Shown here: piece by piece, positions 3-49,623 of the stretch
Numbering within the stretch: the stretch's first letter is position 1
Layout of the letters: each line of letters opens with the position of its first letter
Assembly: GCF_008933115.1 (NCBI RefSeq)
Contig: NZ_WBVO01000003.1
Coordinates: 124,001 to 188,000, forward strand
Source: Phaeocystidibacter luteus
GTDB taxonomy: Bacteria; Bacteroidota; Bacteroidia; Flavobacteriales; Schleiferiaceae
DNA length: 64,000 nucleotides
Direction: 5' to 3'
Translations under genes and position numbers: made by a program
The notes under the pieces: generated by a model
The model's database searches: none
What the model saw: only the letters and a program-made list of their open reading frames with translations
What the model was told of the DNA's origin: nothing

Positions 3-2999
3 GCGGAAGACATCGCCTACCACTATGTTTCTCTCGACACAATCAATGCGGTAGACGCTAACGGTGTTGCTTCGCACGATGGTGATACGGTTCTTGCAAC
101 AGGTACTGTATTTACGGTTGACTACGACGGAAACACGGGTTATTCCTTCTTTATGCAGGATGCTACCGGTGGAATCAACATCTTCAACTTCAACGATGTT
201 TCTGGTTACCAGGTGAACCTCGGCGACTCTATCCGAGTATGGGGTAGAGTTGATCAGTTCAACGGTCTTACTGAAATCGTTCCTGATAGCATTCAGTTGA
301 TCGCTTCAGGCAAGAATGTCGGAGCGCCGTTGGTTGTAACGACTTTGGACGAATCTACAGAGAGCGAATTCATCCGTATGAACGGCATGACACTCGCAAC
401 ACCTTCACAATGGTCTACTTCTGGTGGGTCATTCAACGTGGACATCACTGACGGAACGAACACATTCACAATGCGTATCGACAGCGACGTGAACATTCAC
501 GGTACACCTGCTCCAACAGGTACGTTTGACGTGATTGGTGTTGGTAGTCAGTTCGACAGCAGCAACCCTTACACTTCAGGTTATCAGATTCTTCCTCGCT
601 TTACAGCGGATATTATTCCTGCTGGTGCGGTTCGCTCTATTGATCCAATTGTTACTGTTGATCCAGCAGACGCAAACGGATTGGCTCTGCGTGACGGCGA
701 TACCGTAGCTATTCGCGGTGTTGTATTTACAGACGACTTTGACGGAAATACTGGCTATAGCTTCTTTATTCAAGATGCTACAGGTGGCGTAAACGTTTGG
801 GACTTCGCTGATCAGCCAAACTACTTGACTCCAATGCGTGGAGACAGTTTGGAAATCATCGGTACTGTTACTCAGTTCAACGGTCTCATCGAAGTTCAAC
901 CAGATACTATCATTACACTCGGTACAGGAACGATTAATGGTCCAACTGTAGTTACCACACTTGGTGAAATGACAGAAGGTGAGTTTATCAGAATGAACAA
1001 TGTTTCATTGGTTAACCCATCGCAATGGCAGACTTCTGGTTCATTCAATGTGGACATCACAGACGGTACGAATACGTACACGATGCGTATTGATTCTGAT
1101 GCCAACTTCGGTACGTTCCCTGCTCCATCTGGTGCGTTCGACGTAATCGGTGCGGGAAGCCAGTTCGATAACAGCAATCCGTACACAAGCGGATACCAGA
1201 TTCTTCCGCGTGATACGAATGATATCATTCTAGTTGCGCCTACTACGCCAACTGTGAACTTCGTATCCTCTTTGGTGAGCGTTTCAGAAAGCGCGGGTAC
1301 GGTTGACGTTGATCTTTACATCAACCCAACCGTAGGTACTGCTGAAACGGTTGATCTTCAAGTTACACTCGGACCTGGCGTTACAATTCCAGGCGATGGT
1401 AGCATCACTCCTATGCCAAATATCACTACGGGTATCTTCACATTGAACGTACCAGCTAACGGTGATACAGTGAGCTTCCAAGTGAGCATCGTGGATGACA
1501 TCATCACAGAAAGCAACGAGTACATCGATATCACGATCAACTCCGTTTCTTCTGGATTGACAGCTGGTATTATCGACAGCATGCGTTTCGAGGTAATCGA
1601 CAACGACATCTTCATTCCAACTTACACAATCGATCAGATTGACGGTAGAGATGCTGACTGTGCTATCGACTCACTCCTTTCTTATGTTAGATTGAATGCA
1701 GTAGTAGTTGGGGTTGACCTTCAGGGTGCAGCTTCTTCGAACAGTGCATTTACCATTTGGGACGGTGAAGGCTTCGGTGTATTTGCCGGAGGTTTGAACT
1801 TCACAGTGAACGAAGGTGATTCAATCACACTTGTGGGTGAGCTTGATGAGTTCAACGGCCTTGCCCAAATCTACCCAGATTCAATTCGTGTATTGAAGAG
1901 CGGGTCTACATTGCCAACTCCGGTAGTTATCACTTCTTTGGATGAGACTACAGAATCTGAATTGGTTCGATTTAACAACGCCGAATTGGTTGACCCATCA
2001 CAGTGGAGCTTGACAGGTTCATTCAACGCAGATATTACTAACGGAACTGATACCATCACTATGCGTATCGACTCTGACGTGAATATCTCGGGTACACCTG
2101 CGCCAATTGGCAAGTTCGACGTAATCGGTATTGGTGGTCAGTTTGATAACAGCACACCACGTTGTGACGGTTACCAGTTGTTGCCACGCTACTTGATGGA
2201 TATCATCCTTCCTGAGCCGCCAACGTATGACCTTCACATTTCTGAAGTGATGGCGAACTCAAATGATCCGAATGGTTTGAACTTCGATTGGTTCGAGATT
2301 ACGAACTACTCGACTACCGAAACGTACAACCTTGAGAACTTCTCGTTCGACGACAACAGCGAAATCGACGGATTGAATGTACTTCCAAACGTGAGCATTG
2401 CTCCAGGTGAAGCTATCATCGTGTTCGAAGGAACTGCTGCTGACGAGGCTGCTTGGATTCAGAACTGGAACATCGTGAACGGTGCACCACAGATCGTAGC
2501 GGTTGACGAACTACTCAATGGTTCATTCCCAGGATTGAGCTCTACAAGCGACGCGGTAGTGTTGTACGACAGCTCTTCTAATGTGATTGAGATCTGTAAG
2601 GTAGATTACAACAGTACCCTTCCAGGTCAGTCGCTAGAATTCGACACTGCATGTGCCTTTGTAGGATTTGCAGTTGATGGAACAAACGGAGCGCACACTG
2701 CTGATGGTGGTGATGTTGGTTCTCCGGGTAACGTTGCTCCAGGTATTGGTCTCGCTGAGGCACAATTGAGCAGCATTCGTATCTATCCTAACCCTGCTGT
2801 TCAGAACATCTTTGTTGACATGCCATTCGAAGGCGTGAAGGCAATTACGTTGATGGACATTCGCGGTGCGGTTGTAGAGGTTCTTCAAACAGAAGAAACA
2901 CTCCTCAACATGGACTTGGCGAAGTTCGATGCAGGTGTTTACATGCTACAGATTGAATCAGGAGATGCGCAACGCACAGTTCGCGTGATTCTTCAGTAA
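3..2999 (+). CDS. Large modular secreted protein, T9SS sorting domain (5' truncated)
   Basis: The reading frame is open from the window edge, so the N-terminus and signal peptide lie upstream. What is visible is modular. Two near-identical units of about 190 residues come first, each with a DGDTV...YSFF.QDATGG motif, a QFNGL.E.. strand, an EFIRMN segment and a FDVIG.GSQFD..NPY.SGYQ block. A Calx-beta-like segment (around nt 1245-1610) follows, then a third, more divergent unit, a lamin-tail-like domain (starting LHISEVMAN, around nt 2233-2600) and a C-terminal T9SS type A sorting domain beginning RIYPNPA. The QDATGG/GDSI/NGL.EI pattern resembles OB-fold domains (DUF5689/YhcR type) of Bacteroidota cell-surface proteins and nucleases. 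It is presumably exported to the cell surface or medium. No catalytic motif is visible in this part, but one could lie upstream. Domain identities are inferred from sequence pattern only. Confidence 0.85.
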   Translation, partial: AEDIAYHYVSLDTINAVDANGVASHDGDTVLATGTVFTVDYDGNTGYSFFMQDATGGINIFNFNDVSGYQVNLGDSIRVWGRVDQFNGLTEIVPDSIQLIASGKNVGAPLVVTTLDESTESEFIRMNGMTLATPSQWSTSGGSFNVDITDGTNTFTMRIDSDVNIHGTPAPTGTFDVIGVGSQFDSSNPYTSGYQILPRFTADIIPAGAVRSIDPIVTVDPADANGLALRDGDTVAIRGVVFTDDFDGNTGYSFFIQDATGGVNVWDFADQPNYLTPMRGDSLEIIGTVTQFNGLIEVQPDTIITLGTGTINGPTVVTTLGEMTEGEFIRMNNVSLVNPSQWQTSGSFNVDITDGTNTYTMRIDSDANFGTFPAPSGAFDVIGAGSQFDNSNPYTSGYQILPRDTNDIILVAPTTPTVNFVSSLVSVSESAGTVDVDLYINPTVGTAETVDLQVTLGPGVTIPGDGSITPMPNITTGIFTLNVPANGDTVSFQVSIVDDIITESNEYIDITINSVSSGLTAGIIDSMRFEVIDNDIFIPTYTIDQIDGRDADCAIDSLLSYVRLNAVVVGVDLQGAASSNSAFTIWDGEGFGVFAGGLNFTVNEGDSITLVGELDEFNGLAQIYPDSIRVLKSGSTLPTPVVITSLDETTESELVRFNNAELVDPSQWSLTGSFNADITNGTDTITMRIDSDVNISGTPAPIGKFDVIGIGGQFDNSTPRCDGYQLLPRYLMDIILPEPPTYDLHISEVMANSNDPNGLNFDWFEITNYSTTETYNLENFSFDDNSEIDGLNVLPNVSIAPGEAIIVFEGTAADEAAWIQNWNIVNGAPQIVAVDELLNGSFPGLSSTSDAVVLYDSSSNVIEICKVDYNSTLPGQSLEFDTACAFVGFAVDGTNGAHTADGGDVGSPGNVAPGIGLAEAQLSSIRIYPNPAVQNIFVDMPFEGVKAITLMDIRGAVVEVLQTEETLLNMDLAKFDAGVYMLQIESGDAQRTVRVILQ

Positions 3000-3021
3000 T
3001 CTGCAGACAAACATTTAGGGA

Positions 3022-3055
3022 AGCCGCTCCGGGAAACTGGGGCGGCTTTTTTTTT
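3022..3055 (+). terminator. Rho-independent terminator
   Basis: A 9-bp stem AGCCGCTCC / GGGGCGGCT (one G-T wobble) with an 8-nt loop is followed by an eight-T run. It lies 22 nt after the stop codon of the T9SS surface protein. Confidence 0.85.
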
Positions 3056-3310
3056 GAGTTTTGGACTGATGTACCGACCGAAGGGAGGTATCCCGAGAGG
3101 CGCAGCCGATTCGGGAGAGGGTTGGACTGCTAGAGGGTTAGATGGCCAGAGGGTTAGACTGGCAGACTGATGACCTTATTGGAGGGGGCGCCCAGTGAAG
3201 CGGTGCCGAAGTGGGAGACTATGATACTGCTGGTTGAACCACGACAGTAAAGAATGGGGGCTGATTGCCCCGCCCCGTCCTCAAGCTACGAATCCAGAAG
3301 CCGCTAGTCG

Positions 3311-3330
3311 GATTGTAAACGTTTACAATC
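3311..3330. promoter_or_regulatory. 20-bp perfect palindrome, LacI/cre-type operator look-alike
   Basis: The sequence is GATTGTAAAC followed by its exact reverse complement. The inner 14 bp, TGTAAACGTTTACA, has the central CG and half-site form typical of LacI-family operators and cre sites. It recurs at 3739-3758 and, with only the 14-bp core intact, at 13884-13897. Whether a regulator binds it is unknown; there is no gene immediately downstream on either strand. Confidence 0.5.
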
Positions 3331-3738
3331 GGATAGTTATTCACTTCGAGGAGTTGTCCTCTTTTTGTCCATGATTCGGATGAAGTTGTCCACCAGAAGT
3401 CCACGTGAGATCAGTTAGAATGTCACTAAAAGAATTGAACTTCGCCACATGGGGTGGGGTTGGGGCCCCCACAGGAGGAGGGTTAGAGGGTTAGATGGCC
3501 AGAGGGTTAGACTAGCAGACTGATGACCTTACTGGAAGGGGTGTCCCGTGAGGCGCACGCTATGCGGAGACTGTTAGAGGGTTAGACTGGCAGACTGATG
3601 ACCTTATTGGAGGGGGCGCCCAGTGAAGCGGTGCCGAAGTGGGAGACTATGATACTGCTGGTTGAACCACGACAGTAAAGAATGGGGGCTGATTGCCCCA
3701 CCCCGTCCTCAAGCTACGAATCTAGAAGCCGTTAGTCG

Positions 3739-3758
3739 GATTGTAAACGTTTACAATC
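3739..3758. promoter_or_regulatory. Second copy of the 20-bp palindrome
   Basis: Identical to the palindrome at 3311-3330, in the second unit of the 428-bp tandem duplication. The shared surroundings mean its identity is not independent evidence of constraint; the diverged copy at 13884-13897 is the better comparison. Confidence 0.5.
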
Positions 3759-4184
3759 GGATAGTTATTCACTTCGAGGAGTTGTCCTCTTTTTGTCCAT
3801 GATTCGGATGAAGTTGTCCACCAGAAGTCCACGTGAGATCAGTTAGAATGTCACTAAAAGAATTGAACTTCGCCACATGGGGTGGGGTTGGGGCCCCCAC
3901 AGGAGGAGGGTTAGAGGGTTCGATGGCCAGAGGGTTAGACTGGCAGACTGATGACCTTACTGGAAGGGGTGTCCCGTGAGGCGCACGCTATGCGGAGACT
4001 GTTAGACTGTTAGAGGGTCAGACACTTTGATTGATGGGCTGATGTACCGACCGAAGGGAGGTATCCCGAGAGGCGCAGCCGATTCGGGAGAGGGTTAGAT
4101 TGTCGAGGCAAACACCAACCGTTAGCTTGAAGTCTTTCAAGGGCTATTCTAAAGTCCGTTTATATATTATTCTGTGGACTTTGT

Positions 4185-4822: not shown

Positions 4823-7747
4823 TTATCCTACAACGATATTCACAATCCTGCCAGGTACCACAATCACCTTGCGGATGGTCTTTCCTTCCGTCCACTTGGC
4901 GCTGCGCTCATCGGCCAATACAGCCTCTTCAATCCCTTTTCTATCGAGATCAGCAGCCACGGCGATATTGAAACGAGTCTTCCCATTGAATTGCACCGGA
5001 TACTCGATGCTGCTCTCAACTAAGAATTCTTCGTTGTGCTCCGGATAGCTCTGCTGCGTTACACTTGGCTCGTGACCTAATTTTACCCAAAGCTCCTCTG
5101 CTGTGTGTGGGGCAAATGGCGAAAGTAAGATGGTCAACGGTTCTAGGATCTCGCGCTTACCACATTTGGCATCAGTGAGCTCGTTTACACAAATCATAAA
5201 GGCACTTACGGAAGTGTTGAAGGAGAAGTTCTCAATGTCCTCATTCACCTTTTTGATGGTCTTGTGCAACGTCTTGAGTTCATCTGCTGATGGCTTATCA
5301 TCATTCAGGTTCTCAAAGAGTCGGGTCAATTTGCGAAGGAAGTTGGAAACTCCAGTGATTCCTTTCGTGTCCCATGGCTTCGATTGTTCAATCGGACCAA
5401 GGAACATTTCGTACATGCGGAAGACGTCGGCACCATATTGGTCGACCATGTCATCTGGGTTAACCACATTACCCCAGCGTTTTGACATTTTTTCCACTAT
5501 TCGTTGAGCATAGAACTCCGATCCTTTGCTGATGAAGTAGTTTCTCTTACCAGTGTTATTGAGCTCCTCGCGTTCGAGTTTTTCGGTATCTACGATATCA
5601 GTAATGTCATCAAAGAATGAATTAAAAATGCGAACATCTTGCGGTTTTGAAATGACCTTGAATTCTTCTCGTGTTTGTCCACCTTGGAGTTGTTCCGATA
5701 TCTCTTCCGCAAAAATCTTATTGATCCTTTCAAGTATCCAATCTTCTTTGTTGATCAAGGCCTTTTGTGCATCTCGATCAATGAAAATATCGAAATCAGA
5801 AGGGTTCAGTAGAGTAGCATCATCGGAAGAAGAGTCAGTCCATAGAACTGCATTCTTAATTACTCTGTACATGTATCCACTCACCCCTTGAATCATCCCT
5901 TGGTTTACCAATTTTTGAAACGGCTCCTGAGTGTTTACAAATCCTCTATCTGCCAAGAATTTGTGCCAGAAGCGAGAGTAAAGTAGGTGACCCGTAGCGT
6001 GTTCCGAACCTCCCATGTAGAGGTCCACATTCTGCCAGTAGTTTACCTTGTCTGATGATGCAAACTCCTCCTTGTTTCCGGCATCCATGTAACGCAAGAA
6101 ATACCAACTACTTCCAGCCCAACCAGGCATGGTGGTGGTCTCAAGAGGATGTCCATCAGCCGTGTGCCAATTCGTCGCTCGGGCCAACGGCGGTTCGCCA
6201 TCTTCCGTTGGCAAGTATTTATCCACCTCGGGTAAGGTCAATGGCAATTGATCTTCAGAAAGTGTCTTTGGAATTCCGTTTTCGTAATATACCGGAATCG
6301 GCTCGCCCCAATAGCGTTGGCGACCAAAGATGGCGTCGCGCAAGCGATAGTTGGTCTGTCCAGTTCCAATGCCCTTCGCTTCAATTTCAGAAATGGCTTT
6401 CGCAATAGCATCCTTCACCTCAAGTCCATTGAGGAAATCGCTGTTCATCACCTTGCCCTCTTTCGCATCAACGGCTTCTTCTTCAATGTTTCCGCCTTCT
6501 ACAACTTGGACGATGGGTAGGTCGAAGTGCTTTGCGAAAGCGTGGTCTCTACTATCGTGACCTGGCACCGCCATCACAGCACCCGTACCGTAGTTTGCAA
6601 GCACGTAATCGCCAATCCAAATGGGAACTTTCGCTCCGCTGAATGGATGTATTACGTAAGCGCCTGTGAATGCACCCGAAACGGTTTTCGTATCCGTCAT
6701 ACGGTCGCGCTCACTTTTACGAGCTGCGGCTTCTACATAGGCGTCTATTTCCGAACGCTGTTCATCCGTAGTAATCACATCAACCAAGTCGTGCTCTGGA
6801 GCCAACACCATGAAGGTTACCCCAAAGATGGTATCAGGACGAGTAGTAAACACCTCCACGTTCGCATCGTGGCCATCCACTGCGAATTGAACACTCGCGC
6901 CTTTTGATTTTCCAATCCAGTTACGCTGTGTTTCTTTGAGGGCTTCCGACCATTCTATATCGTTCAAGCCTTGAAGCAAACGTTCCGCATATGCAGAAAT
7001 ACGCATGCTCCATTGCATCATTTTCTTTTGAATAACAGGGAATCCGCCTCGTTCGGAAACGCCGTCTTTGACCTCGTCGTTTGCGAGCACTGTTCCCAAT
7101 TCTGGGCACCAATTAACCATGCTCTCTGAGCGATAGGCCAGTCGGTAATTGAGTAGAATCTCGCTCCGCTCGGATTCATTCTTAGCTTGCCATTCGCTTG
7201 CCGAAAAGCTCAGCTCTTCGTCGCAATGAGCATGTAGATTCGCTGTCCCCAAAGCCTCGAAGTGGGCTTCTAATTCTTGAATCGGACGAGCCTTGTCCAT
7301 CTCGGTATCGTACCAAGAATGAAAGAGCTGAATGAAAATCCACTGCGTCCATTTATAGAACTTGGGGTCACTCGTGCGTACCTCGCGGTTCCAATCAAAG
7401 CTAAATCCGATTCGGTCGAGCTGCTGGCGATAACGCGTAATGTTCGCCTCTGTGGTAATTGCAGGATGCTGACCCGTTTGGATGGCATACTGCTCAGCGG
7501 GAAGACCAAATGAGTCGTATCCCATAGGATGGAGAACGTTGAATCCTTTGTGACGCTTGTAGCGCGCGTAAATATCGCTGGCAATGTAGCCTAGAGGGTG
7601 ACCAACGTGCAATCCTGCTCCGGAAGGATAGGGGAACATGTCGAGCACATAAAACTTAGGTTTACTCGAATGATCTTCTGCTGCGTACGTATTGTTGGCT
7701 GCCCAGTACTGCTGCCACTTTTGGTCTATCTCGCGATGGTTCTCCAT
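4823..7747 (-). CDS. leuS: Leucyl-tRNA synthetase
   Basis: A class Ia synthetase that charges tRNA-Leu in the cytoplasm. The HIGH signature appears as HVGH at residues 47-50 after FPYPSGAGL. The CP1 editing domain carries the T-rich motif ending TTRPDTIFG, and the KMSKS loop reads KMSKR (nt 5477-5491, residue about 752). At 974 aa it is longer than usual for the family because the stretch between GMIQG and the KMSKR loop holds roughly 50-60 extra, charged residues (DNA around 5500-5870). I chose the ATG at 7747; an in-frame TTG nine bases upstream only adds three residues. It is a single gene, and TATTTTCG at about 7768-7775 on the minus strand is a plausible -7 box. Confidence 0.97.
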
Positions 7748-7807
7748 TGTTGTCAATTGTGACCGCGAAAATAGAGCTTTCCTAACGGATGCTCAAGCGT
7801 TTTGAGA

Positions 7808-8638
7808 CTATCGGAGGTCTCTGCTAATCATCAAGCGCGCATTCGCCAGTAAGGTGATTCCCAACCAGGCAAGGGCAGGGTATACGTTCGACCATTGGAC
7901 ATGTTCGTGCACATACCAAGTGATGTACTTTCCAAGGGGAGAAGGAATCAAACTCCATGAAGCATCAATCGGTAAGAACACGGCCAAATCTGCCCATCCC
8001 TGTTTTGCGTGCATGAATCCCAAAATGCCCCAAGCCACAGGCTCTATGAAGTACATGTAGAGCAGGAAAATCAGAATAGTGAGGCCAACTTTTCGCATCA
8101 AGTTTATCGCCAGCATGGCAATGTTTAGATGTAGGAAAATGTGCAGCCAATAGGCGAAGAGGAAATCAATGTGAGAAACGATTTCATTCCAAGAGAAACC
8201 GCCCGACATGGCCCCTCCGAGAACTAACCCGAGGATGAGGAGCAGTGTGAAACTCAAGAAGCTCAAAAAGGCAAGTAGAATAACTTTCGAGAAAAAGTAT
8301 TCGGTTCTACTCAGTCCATCAATCACGTTTTGGCGAATGGTTTTCTCCTCCCATTCTTGCCCTACATTCACAATGACAATGATGCACAGGAGCGGTGTGA
8401 TGAGCTTGTATATGTAGCTCAAGTTGTGCCAAATGTCAATAAAGTAGAATACCGGAAAGTCTTCTGGCTTCACCCCTAAATCGGTAGAGATAAAGTCAGA
8501 ACTATCGTTAATCCATGAGAGGAACTGGTCGATTCCGAATGGGACAACCAAGAAGGCGAATAGCCATAGTCCCATCATCCACTTGAAGTATCTCGAACGA
8601 GAAATCTTCAGCCATTCGATGTAGAATAATCTGATCAT
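7808..8638 (-). CDS. ABC-2 type transporter permease
   Basis: A 276-aa integral membrane protein with about six hydrophobic segments (first at residues 20-40, last near 255-270). It starts MIRLFYIEWLKISRSRYFKW, the charged cytoplasmic lead seen in ABC-2 permeases of Bacteroidota. Its ATG overlaps the stop of the ATPase gene by 4 bp, so the two form a translationally coupled exporter. The substrate is unknown. A gliding-motility GldF-type or bacteriocin-immunity-type exporter is possible, but nothing in the sequence decides. Confidence 0.85.
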   Translation of the reverse strand: MIRLFYIEWLKISRSRYFKWMMGLWLFAFLVVPFGIDQFLSWINDSSDFISTDLGVKPEDFPVFYFIDIWHNLSYIYKLITPLLCIIVIVNVGQEWEEKTIRQNVIDGLSRTEYFFSKVILLAFLSFLSFTLLLILGLVLGGAMSGGFSWNEIVSHIDFLFAYWLHIFLHLNIAMLAINLMRKVGLTILIFLLYMYFIEPVAWGILGFMHAKQGWADLAVFLPIDASWSLIPSPLGKYITWYVHEHVQWSNVYPALAWLGITLLANARLMISRDLR

Positions 8639-9528
8639 TGGTTGCTTTTCAAGAGTTCGAGGAATTTTTCTTCAAGGGTGTTGCGGCGCTCAGAGATTTG
8701 GCCCAAAACAATCTGTTTGTCGATGAATGCACGATTAATCGTTTGGCCATCAACATCGTCACCCACTTGAATGAGAAGTGAATCTTCTTGTTTCTCAACC
8801 TCTGTAATGAAGTTGATTTCACGGGCGGAAACTGCGAGTTTCTCGAGATCCGATGAAGATATCTCCCATCCGCCGTTTCCAGATAGGTCTTCTTTCACGT
8901 TCCCCTTGTGAATGCAGGTTCCTCGTTTCAGGACCGCGTAATCTTTACAAACACGTTGTACTTCATCGAGCAGGTGTGAAGCGAGCACGATAGATTTTCC
9001 GCTTTCTGCAATTTGTGTGATAAGATCTCGGATGTCGTGAATTCCTTCTGGGTCCAATCCATTCGTAGGCTCGTCAAGGATGAGAACTTCCGGATCTCCA
9101 ACGAGTGCAGATGCTATTGCCAAACGCTGTTTCATGCCAAGGGAGTAGGCTTTAAAAGGATCTTTGCCTCGCTTTCCTAGCCCAACAAAATCGAGAACTT
9201 CCTCGATTCTGTCTGCACCGCTCTGTTTTATCGATGCGGCAATTTTCAAGTTCTGTGCTCCTGACAAGTGGGGGTAAAACACGGGGTATTCAAGGATGGC
9301 ACCAACTCGTTTTCTCGCTTTCGATCCCGTTTGGCCATCAAACCAATGGAAGTCGCCTTCGGTAGGGCGAATGGCCCCGAGCACCATGCCAAGCGTTGTG
9401 GTTTTTCCACTGCCGTTAGGTCCCAATAGTCCGAATACCGTTCCCGCTGGAATGTCTAAATCAAGTTTGTTGACCGCTCGAATTCTACCGTAATCCTTCG
9501 TTAGTCCTGTGGTAGTAAGTACGCTCAT
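8635..9528 (-). CDS. ABC transporter ATP-binding protein
   Basis: A 297-aa nucleotide-binding subunit. It has Walker A GLLGPNGSGKTT (about residues 33-44), the ABC signature YSLGMKQRLAIA, Walker B VLILDEPTNGLDPEG and the H-loop segment IVLASHLLDE. The C-terminal extension of about 80 residues is typical of the ABC-2 (drug/Nod/CcmA-like) ATPases. It overlaps the permease gene downstream by 4 bp and the lipoprotein gene upstream by 4 bp, giving a three-gene operon read on the minus strand. Confidence 0.95.
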   Translation of the reverse strand: MSVLTTTGLTKDYGRIRAVNKLDLDIPAGTVFGLLGPNGSGKTTTLGMVLGAIRPTEGDFHWFDGQTGSKARKRVGAILEYPVFYPHLSGAQNLKIAASIKQSGADRIEEVLDFVGLGKRGKDPFKAYSLGMKQRLAIASALVGDPEVLILDEPTNGLDPEGIHDIRDLITQIAESGKSIVLASHLLDEVQRVCKDYAVLKRGTCIHKGNVKEDLSGNGGWEISSSDLEKLAVSAREINFITEVEKQEDSLLIQVGDDVDGQTINRAFIDKQIVLGQISERRNTLEEKFLELLKSNQ

Positions 9529-10040
9529 TTTCCGAAGGGTAGAAGATTAGTTGATCCTGACTGTAATCCAGCGCGCATGAGCGACAACATTTTGTTCTGG
9601 AGGTTGTCACCCCGCAATTCGACGATGTGCAAGCCCTCATCATTTTGAGTGGCGATCAGGATATAATTGAGGCCGTTGTCTGACTTGTTTCCCAATAATT
9701 GAAATGAACCGGTGCCACGGTATACAGGTGGCAACAAGCTCTCGAGCTCCATGGCATCAATTTTTTCCATGATTTCGGTCGGGATGGAGTACTCGGTTGA
9801 GTCCAAGCGCTCCATAGTTATGTCGTACATGCAGGCATCGTGTATGCCGACGAACATCTCGCTCATGGAGCTTGAAGAATCCATGTTGGAGGCGGCCATG
9901 ATCATGCTTGGTGAGAAATAGGAAAAGTTTCCTACTCTGGTATACTCTTCGTGAATGTCGGGCGTGACCAAATCAGGATAATCAGAGGTGCACGAGACGG
10001 CCAGGCATGCAAAAAGAAGAATGGCGATGTATTTGGGCAT
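9525..10040 (-). CDS. Predicted lipoprotein, first gene of ABC operon
   Basis: A 171-aa protein with a lipoprotein signal (MPKYIAILLFACLAVSC, lipobox AVSC, Cys17). The mature part, about 154 residues, has a methionine- and serine-rich stretch around MIMAASNMDSSSSMSEMF and a C-terminal half whose layout (conserved GNKSDNGLNYILIAT region) vaguely recalls DUF4252 lipoproteins; I would not assign that family. It overlaps the ATPase gene by 4 bp, so its role is probably tied to the exporter, as an accessory or cargo-sensing envelope protein (inference). Confidence 0.75.
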   Translation of the reverse strand: MPKYIAILLFACLAVSCTSDYPDLVTPDIHEEYTRVGNFSYFSPSMIMAASNMDSSSSMSEMFVGIHDACMYDITMERLDSTEYSIPTEIMEKIDAMELESLLPPVYRGTGSFQLLGNKSDNGLNYILIATQNDEGLHIVELRGDNLQNKMLSLMRAGLQSGSTNLLPFGK

Positions 10041-13307: not shown

Positions 13308-13379
13308 ATTCCGCCAACTACGAAAAAGGGTTACTCGCCAATCGTTCAATAGCCTCCCACATCGCCACCGCTTCACTGG

Positions 13380-14089
13380 ACGCCCATTCCAATAAGGTCA
13401 TCAGTCTCCCAGTCTAACCCTCTAACCCTCTGGCCCTCCAACCCTCTATTAGTCTCCCGAATCGGCTGCGCCTCTCGGGATGCCTCCCTTCGGTCGGCAC
13501 ATCAGTCTGCCAGTCTAACCCTCCGGCCATCTAACCCTCGAACCCTCTCCCGAATCGGCTGCGCCTCTCGGGATACCTCCCTTCGGTCGGCACATCAGTC
13601 TGCCAGTCTAACCTTCTGGCCCTCTAACCCTCGAACCCTCTCCCGAATCGGCTGCGCCTCTCGGGATACCTCCCTTCGGTCGGCACATCAGTCTGCCAGT
13701 CTACCCCTCCGGCCATCCAACCCTCGAACCCTCTACCTGAGGGGGCCCCAACCCCACCCCATGTGGCGAAGTTCAATTCTTTTAGTGACATTCTAACTGA
13801 TCTCACGTGGACTTCTGGTGGACAACTTGATCCGAATCATGGACAAAAAGGGGACAACTCCTAGAAGTGAATAACTACCCGTATGTAAACGTTTACAATC
13901 CGACTAGCAGCTTTGAGATTCGTAGCTTGAGAACGGGGCGGGGCAATCAGCCCCCATTTCTATACTGTCATGGGTCAACTAGCAATATCACAGTCTCCCA
14001 GTCTAACCCTCCAACCCTCTAACCCTCTCCCGAATCGGCTGCGCCTCTCGGGATACCTCCCTTCGGTCGGCACATCAGTCCAACCCTCC
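13380..14089. repeat. Intergenic repeat cluster 2 (inverted relative to cluster 1)
   Basis: The spacer between convergent genes holds the reverse complement of the cluster 1 material. The 26-nt hairpin core occurs at 13455-13480, 13548-13573, 13641-13666 and 14028-14053, each followed by CCTCCCTTCGGTCGG-type sequence. They are linked by C-rich octamers (AACCCTCT). A single inverted copy of the cluster 1 block lies at about 13739-13980, perhaps 85 percent identical by eye, and keeps the TGTAAACGTTTACA core (13884-13897). No mobile-element gene is visible. Confidence 0.85.
13884..13897. promoter_or_regulatory. Conserved 14-bp palindrome core in inverted element copy
   Basis: TGTAAACGTTTACA is retained although the flanking bases of the 20-bp palindrome have changed on one side (GTA instead of the GAT half). 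This is the only independent copy in the window and supports constraint on the core. Confidence 0.5.
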
Positions 14090-14122
14090 AAAAAAAAAGC
14101 CCAGGCTTTCAACCCAGGCTTC
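14090..14122 (-). terminator. Rho-independent terminator of queA
   Basis: On the minus strand AAGCCTGGG pairs with CCTGGGCTT (two wobble pairs) around a 7-nt loop and runs into a nine-T tract, 25 nt after the queA stop. Confidence 0.8.
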
Positions 14123-14146
14123 TCATATCGAAAAAGGAGCTTATCC

Positions 14147-25950: not shown

Positions 25951-27201
25951 TTGAACCGCCTTAAAATCCTTTACAGAGATCCACGTAGAAAGCAGCCGAC
26001 AAAAGTGCTTTTGAAAATGATCTTCCTTCACGTTTTGGCCATCATCCCAATTTTGATCTTGGAGCAATCCGAATGGGTGAAAGACAATATGTTCGACCCG
26101 AGCGAAAGTGGAATGCTAGATGCCGTCAGAGAAATTCCGGTAGGGTATTTTGTGCTCTATGCGAGTATCGTTGCACCACTTATGGAGGAAGCAGTTTTTA
26201 GAGCTTGGATGGGCTTGCATGCTGCGGCGATAGTCCTCTTTACAACCGGGGCAACGGTTTATGGAGGATTGGTAATCTCCCCTTCATTTGCCCTAGGTGC
26301 TGGTGTAGTGGTTCTGATTCTCACGCTGATATTTCTTCCGCACATAAAGCGGAATATGGACATACGATTCCAGCGCTGGTTCTATGGAAGCGCTATTCTC
26401 TTCGGAGCAATTCACCTCGGAAACTTCGGTCTGGCGGCTGGTGCGCTTTTGTTCATTTTACCACAGGTAATTTTGGGATTGACCATCGGGCTCGTTCGAG
26501 TGCAAAGAGGCTTTTGGTTTGGCGTCCTCTTTCACGCGTTGTGGAATGGAACGATTAGTATGTTGCTCCTAGTTCCCTATTTCGATTCAGAGGAAAAGGT
26601 CGAAGAGGGCGATGCGTTTTATGCAACATGGGAAACCAGCGATGCCTTCAGCTTTGGAAGTTCTTCGTATTTAAGTTCAGATTCTGTCAACTTTGAGAAC
26701 GTACTTATTGAAGAGTGCTTGAAGGCTATTCACAGATCTTTGGACAGTGAAGTCATCGTTGAATTAAATGGATTTTCCGGCGTTCGAATAAACCTGATGA
26801 TTGAAGGCGATGTGCAAGCGGGCCTCGAGAGGCTGTCGGAAGTTTGGAGTGACAAATACAATGTGAAAGTGAATGCTTCGGAAGGGGAAGAGGATGTCTA
26901 CATACTCTCCAATATAGAAGATTGCGAAGCAGAGGAAATCCCAGGGGAATCGAGGGATGTACTCCAGCTCTTGGCAAGGTATAAGAATGATGCTTTCGGA
27001 AATAGTATAGCGCGCAGAATGGAATCGCTTTATGAAGTGAAGGTTCGATTCGAAGGGGATGATGCGTTTTACACGCCGGTTATTTACCCGTCAGAGGGCC
27101 TCGATTCCGCTTTACATGCTGCGGAATACTACAGCTGTTTGTCTACCAAAGTGGTGAAGGAAGAGGTGAAGAGGATTGTGGTGGAGGCGGGGGAGTTTTA
27201 A
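25951..27201 (+). CDS. CPBP-family intramembrane metalloprotease with long C-terminal extension
   Basis: A 416-aa protein. Its CPBP/CAAX-protease core holds the motifs EEAVFRAW (Glu79-Glu80, Arg84), FGAIHLGNFG and LFHALWNG, which supply the catalytic Glu and His residues in the membrane. The first about 215 residues are membrane; the last 200 are soluble, acidic and unlike usual family members. The start is TTG at 25951, favoured by the basic lead MNRLKILYRDPRRKQ and a near -7 box (TAGCTTTA, 25918-25925); the next ATG (around 26017) would cut into the first helix. Bacteriocin-immunity-like or protein-maturation roles are known for the family; this one is unassigned. Confidence 0.85.
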   Translation: MNRLKILYRDPRRKQPTKVLLKMIFLHVLAIIPILILEQSEWVKDNMFDPSESGMLDAVREIPVGYFVLYASIVAPLMEEAVFRAWMGLHAAAIVLFTTGATVYGGLVISPSFALGAGVVVLILTLIFLPHIKRNMDIRFQRWFYGSAILFGAIHLGNFGLAAGALLFILPQVILGLTIGLVRVQRGFWFGVLFHALWNGTISMLLLVPYFDSEEKVEEGDAFYATWETSDAFSFGSSSYLSSDSVNFENVLIEECLKAIHRSLDSEVIVELNGFSGVRINLMIEGDVQAGLERLSEVWSDKYNVKVNASEGEEDVYILSNIEDCEAEEIPGESRDVLQLLARYKNDAFGNSIARRMESLYEVKVRFEGDDAFYTPVIYPSEGLDSALHAAEYYSCLSTKVVKEEVKRIVVEAGEF

Positions 27202-27202
27202 G

Positions 27203-27775
27203 TTCCGCCTAAGGCGGATAGGACTCGCTTTGCTCGTAAGTTTCGCTTCGCGAAAAATACCGAGTACCTCGGTAAGAAGCCTTCGGCTAAGGCTCGCTAG
27301 GCTCGCAAGTTTCGCTACGCGAAAAAGACCGAGTGCCTCGGTAAGAAGCCTCCGGCTAAGACTCGCTTCGCTCGTAAGATTCGCTTTGTGAAAAGGCCGA
27401 GTGCCTCGGTAAGAAGCCTCCGGCTAAGGCTCGCTCCGCTCGTAAGTTTCGCTACGCGAAAAAGACCGAGTGCCTCGGTAAGAAGCCGTCGGCTAAGGCT
27501 CGCTTCGCTCGTAAGTTTCGCTTTGTGAAAAAGACCGAGTACCTCGGTAAGAAGCCTCCGGCTAAGGCTCGCTAGGCTCGTAAGTTTCGCTACGCGAAAA
27601 AGACTGAGTGCCTCGGTAAGAAGCCTTCGGCTAAGACTCGCTAGGCTCGCAAGTTTCGCTACGCGAAAAAGACCGAGTGCCTCGGTAAGAAGCCTCCGGC
27701 TAAGGCTCGCTAGGCTCGCAAGTTTCGCTTTGCGAAAAAGACCGAGTGCCTCGGTAAGAAGCCGTCGGCTAAGGC
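27203..27775. repeat. Tandem array of eight 69-bp hairpin units
   Basis: Eight units of 69 bp (one of 68) begin their central hairpin at 27259, 27328, 27396, 27465, 27534, 27603, 27672 and 27741. Each unit holds three tight hairpins with three-base loops: TTTCGC-nnn-GCGAAA, ACCGAG-nnn-CTCGGT and AGCC-nnn-GGCT. Loop bases vary (TAC/TTC/TTT; TGC/TAC; TCC/TTC/GTC) while stems are kept, including wobble changes. A CTCGCTTCGCTC-type mirror segment alternates with a TAGG variant. The array starts directly after the CPBP gene stop and is bracketed by TCCGCC...GGCGGA hairpins (27204-27218, 27840-27855). Confidence 0.9.
27204..27218. repeat. TCCGCC-TAA-GGCGGA hairpin at array left edge
   Basis: A perfect 6-bp inverted repeat, 2 nt after the CPBP stop codon. 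The same arms recur with other loops at 27840-27855 and 49591-49606. There is no T-run, so it is not a classic terminator. Confidence 0.6.
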
Positions 27776-27943
27776 AGTTCGGTTTGAAGCTGGGGCATGC
27801 AAAGTAGGCTTGCGTATCGCCGGGAGGCGTTGCGCCTTATCCGCCAAGAGGCGGATCTTAAATCACGACGACAGGAGAGATTTCTTATGCGCAGCATTAT
27901 CTCTCTCCCAATCCATATCTTTGCCCTTTAACCACATTACTCT
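27776..27943. other. Spacer after hairpin array, upstream of yebC-like gene
   Basis: It contains the TCCGCC-AAGA-GGCGGA hairpin (27840-27855) and a -7 box (27916-27923). No gene is seen in it. Confidence 0.5.
27916..27923 (+). promoter_or_regulatory. -7 box (TATCTTTG) of the YebC gene
   Basis: A perfect TAnnTTTG, 20 nt upstream of the ATG at 27944. Confidence 0.6.
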
Positions 27944-28669
27944 ATGGGACGCGCGTTCGAATATCGCAAGGCAAGAAAAATGAAACGTTGGGCATCAATG
28001 GCCAAAACGTTTACGAGAATTACGAAGGACATCATCATGGCTGTTAAGGAAGGGGGAGATAGCCCTGAAGCTAACTACCGCCTGAAGATGCTCATGCAGA
28101 ACGCCCGCGATGCGAACATGCCTAAGGACAATGTGGAGCGCGCCATCAAAAAGGCGATGTCCAAGGATCAGCAGGACTATAAAGAGGTTGTGTACGAAGG
28201 GTACGCGCCGCACGGAATTGCTGTTCTCATCGAAACGGCCACTGACAACACGACTAGAACCGTTGGTAACGTTCGCTCGTATTTCAACAAGGCCAATGGA
28301 AGTCTAGGCACAAGTGGCTCAGTAGAATTCATGTTCGAGCACAAGTGCCACTTTAAGATTGCTGCTGAAGGAATCGATATCGAAGAGTTTGAACTCGAGA
28401 TGATTGATTACGGCGTTGAGGAGATTTTCGCAGATCATGACGATGAAAAGGAAATGGACATCATCATGCTTTACGGCAACTTCCCTGATTACGGCAATAT
28501 TGCAAAGGGTCTCGATGAGAAAGGCATCGAAGTGCTTTCTTCTGGTTTTGAGCGTATCCCAATGGACCGCAAAGAGCTTTCGGAAGAAGAGCAAGCGGAT
28601 GTTGACAAGCTTATTGAGCGCATCGAAGAGGACGATGACGTCCAGGCAGTTTACACAAATATGGCCTAG
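27944..28669 (+). CDS. YebC/PmpR-family protein
   Basis: A 241-aa protein of the YebC/TACO1 family. The conserved N-terminus (MGRAFEYRKARKMKRWASMAK) and the NMPKDNVERAIKKA and YEGYAPHGIAVLIE blocks are clear. The family is described both as transcriptional regulators and as factors that help ribosomes through difficult peptides; no more specific role is visible. It is a monocistronic gene downstream of the hairpin array. Confidence 0.93.
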   Translation: MGRAFEYRKARKMKRWASMAKTFTRITKDIIMAVKEGGDSPEANYRLKMLMQNARDANMPKDNVERAIKKAMSKDQQDYKEVVYEGYAPHGIAVLIETATDNTTRTVGNVRSYFNKANGSLGTSGSVEFMFEHKCHFKIAAEGIDIEEFELEMIDYGVEEIFADHDDEKEMDIIMLYGNFPDYGNIAKGLDEKGIEVLSSGFERIPMDRKELSEEEQADVDKLIERIEEDDDVQAVYTNMA

Positions 28670-48883: not shown

Positions 48884-49179
48884 GCAAATTTGGAGAGCTT
48901 GTCCGCGAGGGCAATGTGTTGGTCGACTTTCATGCGACGTGGTGCCAGCCATGTAAAATACTAGGGCCGATCCTTCAAGAACTCGCTAGAGAGTGGGAGG
49001 GGAAGGTTCGAATCATCAAAATAGATATTGATAAGAATCCCGCGATAGCTCAGAAGCTAGCTGTTCAAGGCGTTCCAACAATGATCTTTTATAGCAATGG
49101 TGAGCAGAAGTGGCGCAGGTCAGGAGCTTTGCCGAAGCATGTTATAAAAGGAGAATTGGAGGGGTTTTTAGACTGTTAG
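48880..49179 (+). CDS. Thioredoxin
   Basis: A 99-aa cytosolic thioredoxin with active site WCQPCK (Cys22, Cys25), cis-Pro in GVPTMIFY and no signal peptide. It is shortened at the N-terminus compared with E. coli TrxA. It overlaps the DUF3365 gene by 4 bp, tying thiol redox to the haem protein and the rhodaneses. This is a dedicated paralogue rather than an obvious housekeeping trxA. Confidence 0.92.
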   Translation: MSKFGELVREGNVLVDFHATWCQPCKILGPILQELAREWEGKVRIIKIDIDKNPAIAQKLAVQGVPTMIFYSNGEQKWRRSGALPKHVIKGELEGFLDC

Positions 49180-49623
49180 ACTTTTAGACCGTTAGACCTT
49201 TAGAGGGTTAGAGGGTTAGAGGGTCGGAGGGTTGGACTGGTAGGCTTCTGTTCCGACTGAAAGGAGGAATCCCGAGAGGCGCAGCCGATTCGGGAGACTG
49301 ATAGAAACTTTGAGGGTTGGAGGGTTGGAGGGTTAGACTGGTAGGCTTACGTTCCGACTGAAAGGAGGAATCCCGAGAGGCGCAGCCGATTCGGGAGACT
49401 TATAGACAGTCAGACTTATAGACAGGTTAAACTATATTCAGACTGAAAAGAGACGTTCTGAGATGCATAGCCGACTCGGGCGTCATTTAAATTGATATTT
49501 CTACCAGCAGGTGGAGTTCTGGGAGGGGTGATCACGCTAGTAGACGGCTAGGCTTGCAGCGATAGCTGCCTTGCTGAGGAACGAAGCATTTCCGCCGGAA
49601 GGCGGACTTGCCGAAGAATGAGG
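49180..49623. repeat. Intergenic repeat cluster 3 with G-rich octamers
   Basis: A gene-free spacer between convergent genes. The 26-nt hairpin core occurs at 49271-49296 and 49371-49396; a degenerate copy follows at about 49443-49480. Octamers of the form GGGTTAGA give GGG runs at 49205, 49213, 49221 and 49229 with loops of five bases. A TCCGCC-GGAA-GGCGGA hairpin (49591-49606) closes the cluster before the SPOR gene. The cores are in the same orientation as cluster 1. Confidence 0.85.
49205..49231 (+). other. Candidate G-quadruplex motif
   Basis: Four GGG runs with 5-nt loops at an 8-bp period fit the G3+N1-7 pattern. Formation in the cell is untested; it lies just 3' of the thioredoxin gene. 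Confidence 0.5.

Follow-up and report, generated by a model that had tools for sequence, protein, structure and literature searches.

Architecture of the array

The 64-kb stretch of DNA analysed here (the window) carries a regular array of small hairpins, located between yebC and a gene for a protease. The question raised by this locus is what such an array is: a structured transcript, a product of tandem duplication, or one part of a mobile element. TRF places the array at 27224-27775, with a period of 69, 8.0 copies and 89% matches, and the starts of its eight units are spaced 69, 69, 68, 69, 69, 69 and 69, one unit being 68 bp long. Each unit has three triloop hairpins, TTTCGCnnnGCGAAA, ACCGAGnnnCTCGGT and AGCCnnnGGCT, giving 24 in total, a few of them with one wobble. 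The density is above what chance would give: the 64 kb contain 28 perfect triloop hairpins whose stem is 6 bp or longer, and 13 of these start within 27203-27775.

A preliminary description of this DNA had counted the eight 69-bp units and the 24 triloop hairpins, and both counts hold. It also had the right end, 27775, but its start at 27203 takes in an extra hairpin, TCCGCC-TAA-GGCGGA (27204-27218), that lies outside the array proper. Two features were overlooked, namely a fourth module in each unit, CTCGCnnnGCTCG, which is imperfect with two T/C mismatches, and the spacer AAG, which separates the modules throughout. Furthermore, stem changes had been described as compensated and loops as changing freely. 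When the eight units are aligned, however, none of the 19 stem pairs changes on both sides; the departures amount to four G-U cells across three pairs plus one unpaired cell, and the examples cited as compensation are wobbles on the plus strand and A-C mismatches on the minus strand. The loops are constrained as well, with T as the first base in 30 of 32 triplets and the form T-N-C in 22 of 32.

A protein-coding role for the array was considered and rejected. No frame is open throughout, and the variable triplet TAG also stops one plus frame. A minus frame (27318-27836) is open for 173 codons and covers most of the array, yet it has no ATG, GTG or TTG; starts in the other frames yield 71 residues at best, and no ORF of at least 80 aa is listed. 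In the absence of a whole-length frame, a usual start and an ORF of this size, the array was judged non-coding. Searches for structured RNAs gave no tRNA or tmRNA candidates for the array, and Rfam 15, which includes rRNA families, gave nothing in the window that reached a gathering score and nothing up to E 1 over 27180-27960. Used as a query, the whole array had one match in its own genome, no match at E 0.001 in 20 relatives and none in plasmid and phage records, and it was not found in viral contigs with the one pattern tried. Its hairpin C (ACCGAGnnnCTCGGTAAG, 0-1 mismatches) was found in the array only and is not dispersed.

On the minus strand, 27258-27755 contains six terminator-like sites, each made of hairpin C and a T-rich tail, where 1.5 are expected. 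We know of no minus-strand gene that runs into them.

An apparent insert, missing between the same genes of two congeners

The gene upstream encodes a CPBP/Rce1-like intramembrane protease (25951-27201, plus strand; PF02517, E 1.3e-6), and the one downstream a YebC/TACO1-family regulator (27944-28669, plus strand; PF01709, E 7.9e-50; TIGR01033). The two genes are adjacent in both congeners compared, G001 and G002, where the protease counterparts are 42% and 38% identical, respectively; used as a query in the search of genome contigs, the protease found no relative. The gap between protease and yebC, however, is 742 bp here versus 71 and 72 bp in the congeners, so that a gain here is simpler than a loss twice. 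With protease and yebC kept side by side at this distance, the earlier suggestion of a long 3' UTR finds no support.

From the gap comparison, the insert would measure about 660 bp and span approximately 27202-27862, leaving 81 bp to yebC. Its left end (27196-27222, plus strand) consists of TTTTAAG, the TCCGCC-TAA-GGCGGA hairpin and TAGG, and overlaps the protease stop codon (27199-27201); the preliminary description had the array follow directly on that codon. By eye only, this end resembles 27835-27863 inverted, the hairpin part being palindromic on its own. The AAG arm follows (27224-27775, plus strand), with eight tandem units of four AAG-separated modules, one imperfect and three with triloops, as defined by TRF, the unit split, the chain scan, the module parse and pair counts. 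A core of 33 bp (27776-27808) without an ORF of at least 80 aa then leads to a CTT arm (27809-27859, minus strand), whose two modules read AAG-wise on the minus strand. These modules, ATCCGCC-TCTT-GGCGGAT and the mismatched GCGCAACGCC-TCCC-GGCGATACGC, were obtained by chain scan and module parse with one mismatch allowed, and two from 7-bp stems on. As judged from this layout, the array is apparently the left arm of an insert that ends in a short CTT arm.

Neither a target duplication nor a neighbouring transposase was found at the insert, the G001 and G002 intergenic sequences being too diverged to reveal the former. The outer hairpin, TCCGCCN{3,4}GGCGGA, stands at both insert ends; a genome-wide count gave 74 places for it, many of them clustered, and 0 for the reversed control.

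AAG-spaced chains across the genome

Constant trinucleotide spacers between perfect hairpins were scanned in 448 kb of the own genome, that is, the window plus 384 kb of other stretches. For AAG (with CTT), 18 chains of at least two hairpins were found, comprising 56 modules; every other trinucleotide class gave at most one chain. With settings slightly narrower, the modules in chains of at least three numbered 42 for AAG/CTT and 0 for every other trinucleotide. Because the modules were selected by their perfect stems, the test lies in the comparison of spacers and not in the stems, and we used perfect-stem counts only, since chains with mismatches allowed give many chance pairs in all four genomes. 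The other three of these genomes yielded one AAG chain in 400 kb (the congener G001) and none in 200 kb each (G005 and G051); there, other spacers yield single chains too.

The 18 chains come from five places, namely the window, L037, L038 and, twice, L040. Their stems are mostly place-specific (GTGC/GCAC, ACTAGC/GCTAGT, GCAGC/GCTGC, ACAGC/GCTGT, ATGC/GCAT and others), except that the two L040 arrays have stems in common. The idea that hairpins as such are maintained therefore draws support from other places, where different self-complementary stems keep the same AAG spacing, and not, as had been thought, from changes inside the array. Other AAG/CTT arrays sit between co-directional and between divergent genes. 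At the eamA-ctaA site, which holds the L038 array, G001 is without an array and G002 has a different AG/CT array (both by eye).

The order of the arms was also counted. Among neighbouring arms of opposite sense (at most 700 bp apart, at least one arm with two modules), AAG precedes CTT in 7 of 10 pairs, and each of the three pairs in CTT-AAG order has a single-module arm. Four pairs have two or more modules in each arm (L037, two at L040, and L157), and in all four AAG comes before CTT.

Three further observations concern such arrays. In the eamA-ctaA intergenic region of G002 (L152), there is a short-word array with AG on the left and CT on the right, whose left and right words look unrelated. 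At L040, AAG/CTT arrays at 5578-6740 and 7845-8215 flank one gene on each side, an ORF at 6765-7871 on the minus strand with, by eye, the look of a metallo-beta-lactamase fold. At L034, an AAG hairpin array (2290-3240) contains a repeat of ~246 bp in its core, the same module pair recurring at 2434, 2680 and 2926.

Loop polarity and folding

The AAG-tagged hairpins have polar loops. In the own-genome sample, loops of the form T..C occur in 44 of 207 tagged versus 606 of 8313 untagged hairpins (p 1e-10, tandem copies being counted separately), and G..A loops, at 11 of 207 tagged hairpins, are not enriched. Ten further loci of the genome, fetched for related hairpins, gave T..C in 24 of 37, and the tagged hairpins of G001 in 4 of 114. 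When distinct modules were counted in 18 arms of our choosing, 38 loops were T..C, four G..A and 33 of another kind, and the mismatches in distinct stems were T/C (14), TT (4), CA (4), GG (3) and G/A (1), besides rarer types.

Viewed on the CTT strand, the T..C loops become G..A loops and the T/C mismatches become G-A; the closing pair on that strand is C-G in 98 of 207. Exceptional stability is described for DNA mini-hairpins in which a G-C stem carries a GNA or GNNA loop (PMC4686876). Taken together, the G..A loops, the G-A mismatches and the stability of GNA/GNNA loops suggest that it is the CTT strand that matters, in the form of single-stranded DNA. Opposite to this reading, the AAG strand is favoured by the four G-U cells found in the window array.

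Predicted folds were compared for RNA and DNA. As RNA, the whole array folds no better than its shuffles (z -0.76 and -0.32), and two single units score z -0.24 to -0.72, with one or two of the three hairpins replaced by other pairings. With DNA parameters, the same two units form exactly the three hairpins on the plus strand, and on the minus strand a fourth joins these three; the z is moderate, -1.1 to -1.6. We consider it most likely that the modules act as single-stranded DNA, the CTT strand being the better folder.

IVP genes and their inverted arms

One of the AAG arrays encloses a gene. At L037, an IVP gene of 119 aa (PF05635, 23S rRNA intervening-sequence protein; 9377-9736) has an AAG arm on one side and a CTT arm on the other; the same element is also denoted L053. 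The genome has two PF05635 genes, neither of them in the window, and the second (L052), which has an internal stop, lies between GGGTTAGA-type arms that resemble three clusters in the window. PF05635 proteins are common, with matches in 60 of 118 genomes sampled from the host's order. Compared with solved structures, IVP gave one weak match, 2gsc (E 0.0066).

Whether arms are a regular companion of these genes was assessed at 56 IVP loci from 35 genomes (30 + 24 + 2 own), the best matches of a longer list, by comparing the upstream and downstream 350-bp flanks as inverted repeats with 2906 swapped pairs; 55 of the 56 were usable, L104 having too short a flank. Among the matches listed, the score lies above the 99th percentile of swapped arms at 20 of 55 loci and above the 95th at 34 of 55, and 35 of 55 stay at or below the 99th; the loci are partly orthologous to each other, so that not all are independent. 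In direct orientation, the same flanks of the matches listed exceed these percentiles in 2 and 8 of 55, respectively. As a control, yebC flanks compared with their own swapped pairs did so in 1 and 4 of 73 loci, 7 of the 80 having been left out as shorter than 3650 bases. The arms of L053, with a score of 115, are the highest of the 55 among the matches listed.

The arms also differ in composition. Among the matches listed, 27 left arms score above 26; AG outnumbers CT in 24 of them, and one of the other three is a tie. The left arm of L053, with 11 AG and 13 CT, is one of the 2 of 27 with more CT, because its stems carry CT; we count this against the IVS-like reading proposed below. At 20-60 bp upstream, the IVP loci among the matches listed, with the two own loci set aside, have an AG:CT of 225:74 versus 115:154 for yebC, and downstream of IVP it is 76:152 (among the matches listed). 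Further out (60-120 bp), the yebC flanks show a milder bias in the same sense, 306:203 upstream and 201:273 downstream. In the host's order, then, inverted arms specific to the locus are a frequent setting of IVP genes, with AG mostly prevailing in the left arm and CT in the right.

G001 keeps an IVP gene (42.7% identity over 110 residues) at the orthologous M16-S9 peptidase site, between arms of other words. These arms give one tagged hairpin module, and by that test do not count as hairpin arrays. Neither an IVP match nor a tagged module was found in G002 at this site.

Origin of the array

The reading that we favour, tentatively and at a little under an even chance, is that the array forms one arm of a selfish repeat element, IVS-like but gene-less, that became inserted in the interval from the protease gene to yebC. 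The same design recurs elsewhere with other hairpins, once around an IVP gene, which suggests a little-described selfish repeat element. On the anatomy observed (architecture, spacer specificity, loop polarity, absence from this site in both congeners, association of IVP genes with arms) we would build the following account of mobility, of the part played by the protein and of action as DNA rather than RNA. The element is polar, with [hairpin-AAG]n, a core and then [CTT-hairpin]n, and at L037 the same architecture with other stems encloses the gene for the PF05635 four-helix-bundle protein, 'IVP'. The CTT strand would fold better: the T/C mismatches, common in the stems, turn into G-A pairs there, and many of its loops are c(GNA)g or c(GNNA)g. 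Tandem duplication has raised the number of modules within the arm, arms might be replicated or moved via hairpin-forming single-stranded DNA, and IVP might recognise the tagged arms. The window element would have lost its IVP gene or would never have had one. Its link with IVP rests on the layout in common, since there are two IVP genes only and none is in view at four of the five AAG-chain places. Further results that tell against this reading are the IVP loci at or below the 99th percentile, the single tagged module in the G001 arms, the milder AG/CT bias of the yebC flanks, the modest z of the DNA folds, the wobbles on the AAG strand, the mismatch types other than T/C, the three arm pairs in CTT-AAG order, and the negative outcome for a target duplication and a neighbouring transposase.

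Among the closest known models is the 23S rRNA intervening sequence (IVS) with an S23/IVP gene, for example in Coxiella, where it is described as a selfish element (PMC4990558). As far as that text goes, the likeness lies in complementary terminal arms around a PF05635-type gene, a layout found at L037, and the difference in the site, an rRNA gene versus intergenic DNA, and in the arms, which here are AAG-tagged hairpin arrays. By definition the window element is no IVS, because it lies outside rRNA, between the protease gene and yebC, and contains neither an ORF of at least 80 aa nor a PF05635 match, such as the gene that L037 does contain. In its manner of working it would combine traits of an IVS with those of a MITE. 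Two kinds of repeat known from this phylum are also comparable. BrickBuilt, a MITE of Porphyromonas gingivalis (PMC4596501), is likewise intergenic in a member of the Bacteroidota and has a tandem array within an element with small inverted ends; unlike here, it has a single conserved unit of 23 nt, forms that occur 19 times and long stem-loops, as opposed to hairpin-AAG modules with place-specific stems. The heptamer (TAACTGA) direct repeats, which occur in Bacteroidetes too (PMC4679880), are also intergenic arrays of short words that are missing at the same site in relatives, but the words are without hairpins, and IVP genes and inverted arms do not figure in the text at hand.

REP/BIME elements are another close parallel, and a BIME-like cluster was the nearest of the three guesses in the preliminary description. 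The array would then consist of short AAG-tagged palindromes that a Y1 (RAYT-type) transposase had mobilised in the form of single-stranded DNA and that were later amplified in tandem, a possibility that we think unlikely but worth serious weight. The available text on REP/BIME with GTAG or CGTC tags (PMC3733652) describes short, polar, tagged palindromes, mostly intergenic and often in opposed pairs; here, too, tag and loop are polar and clusters hold both orientations. The end hairpin, at its 74 places, qualifies as a single widely dispersed palindrome, which the array hairpin C does not, and the genome has three Y1_Tnp genes. The tag, however, is neither GTAG nor CGTC at one foot but AAG on both feet, AAG being the sole trinucleotide spacer with more than one chain, and the stems vary by place instead of following one family sequence as in that source. 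Nor was a Y1 transposase gene found beside the arrays, a further difference from the systems described there: repeats that flank a RAYT gene, as in the GTAG families, were not found in AAG form at the three Y1_Tnp loci, each having 0-1 AAG/CTT modules within 1.5 kb, and the Y1 flanks are other repeats, direct ones (scores 378-423 direct, 22-32 inverted). The Y1 loci lend no support to RAYT mobilisation of AAG arrays, though the Y1 proteins may still act at a distance. Could the array instead be a chance hairpin cluster expanded by slippage, with neither mobility nor function? The regular period, the high identity of the units, the lack of double changes in all 19 pairs and whole-array folds no better than shuffles speak for such plain tandem duplication. 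It leaves unexplained, though, why AAG-specific chains with mostly different stems occur at five places, why the loops are polar and why such chains are nearly absent from the congener (one in 400 kb), and we hold it to be very unlikely.

A functional transcribed structure, be it a long structured 3' UTR belonging to the protease gene or an array of RNA that binds protein and affects yebC, is in our view very improbable. In its favour, the array region begins at the protease stop codon, the stems depart from perfect pairing by G-U when read on the strand that carries both genes, and the minus-strand hairpins are terminator-like in the number given above (6 vs 1.5). Against this stand the absence from both congeners, the RNA folds of two units in which one or two hairpins rearrange, the lack of an Rfam match, and the placement of other arrays between divergent as well as co-directional genes.

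A bolder form of the preferred reading, to which we give a distinctly low probability, would place the Bacteroidota IVP genes as coding members in a class of selfish elements that has gone unrecognised. Their arms would be grown and re-written as polar AG/CT-tagged repeats via hairpins of single-stranded DNA whose c(GN(N)A)g loops are extra stable, and would be replaced while the gene stays, as between G001 and the own genome; the window array would be a gene-less offspring. A limited search of the open-licence PMC literature found no account of AG/CT-tagged inverted arms at IVP genes or of AAG-spaced hairpin arrays, and the accessible parts of a REP survey (PMC12306157) and of a Flavobacterium columnare paper (PMC5524665) contain nothing on such arms or arrays. 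If IVP genes as a rule lie in locus-specific, AG/CT-polar arms, with gene-less AAG copies scattered about, the protein and its own arms would form a concrete, testable substrate. If true, this would also be a case of DNA structure persisting while the sequence gets replaced.

Other repeats in the genome and the window

The three Y1_Tnp genes (L049, L050 and L051) each lie within their own direct-repeat palindrome arrays, which differ in sequence. In the window, 3053-4141, 13349-14124 and 49166-49448 are GGGTTAGA-type octamer arrays with a common hairpin segment, in both orientations. Near its left edge (243-2154), diverged 46- and 58-nt repeats recur at a spacing of about 0.6-1.0 kb, perhaps as parts of a gene for a repetitive protein.
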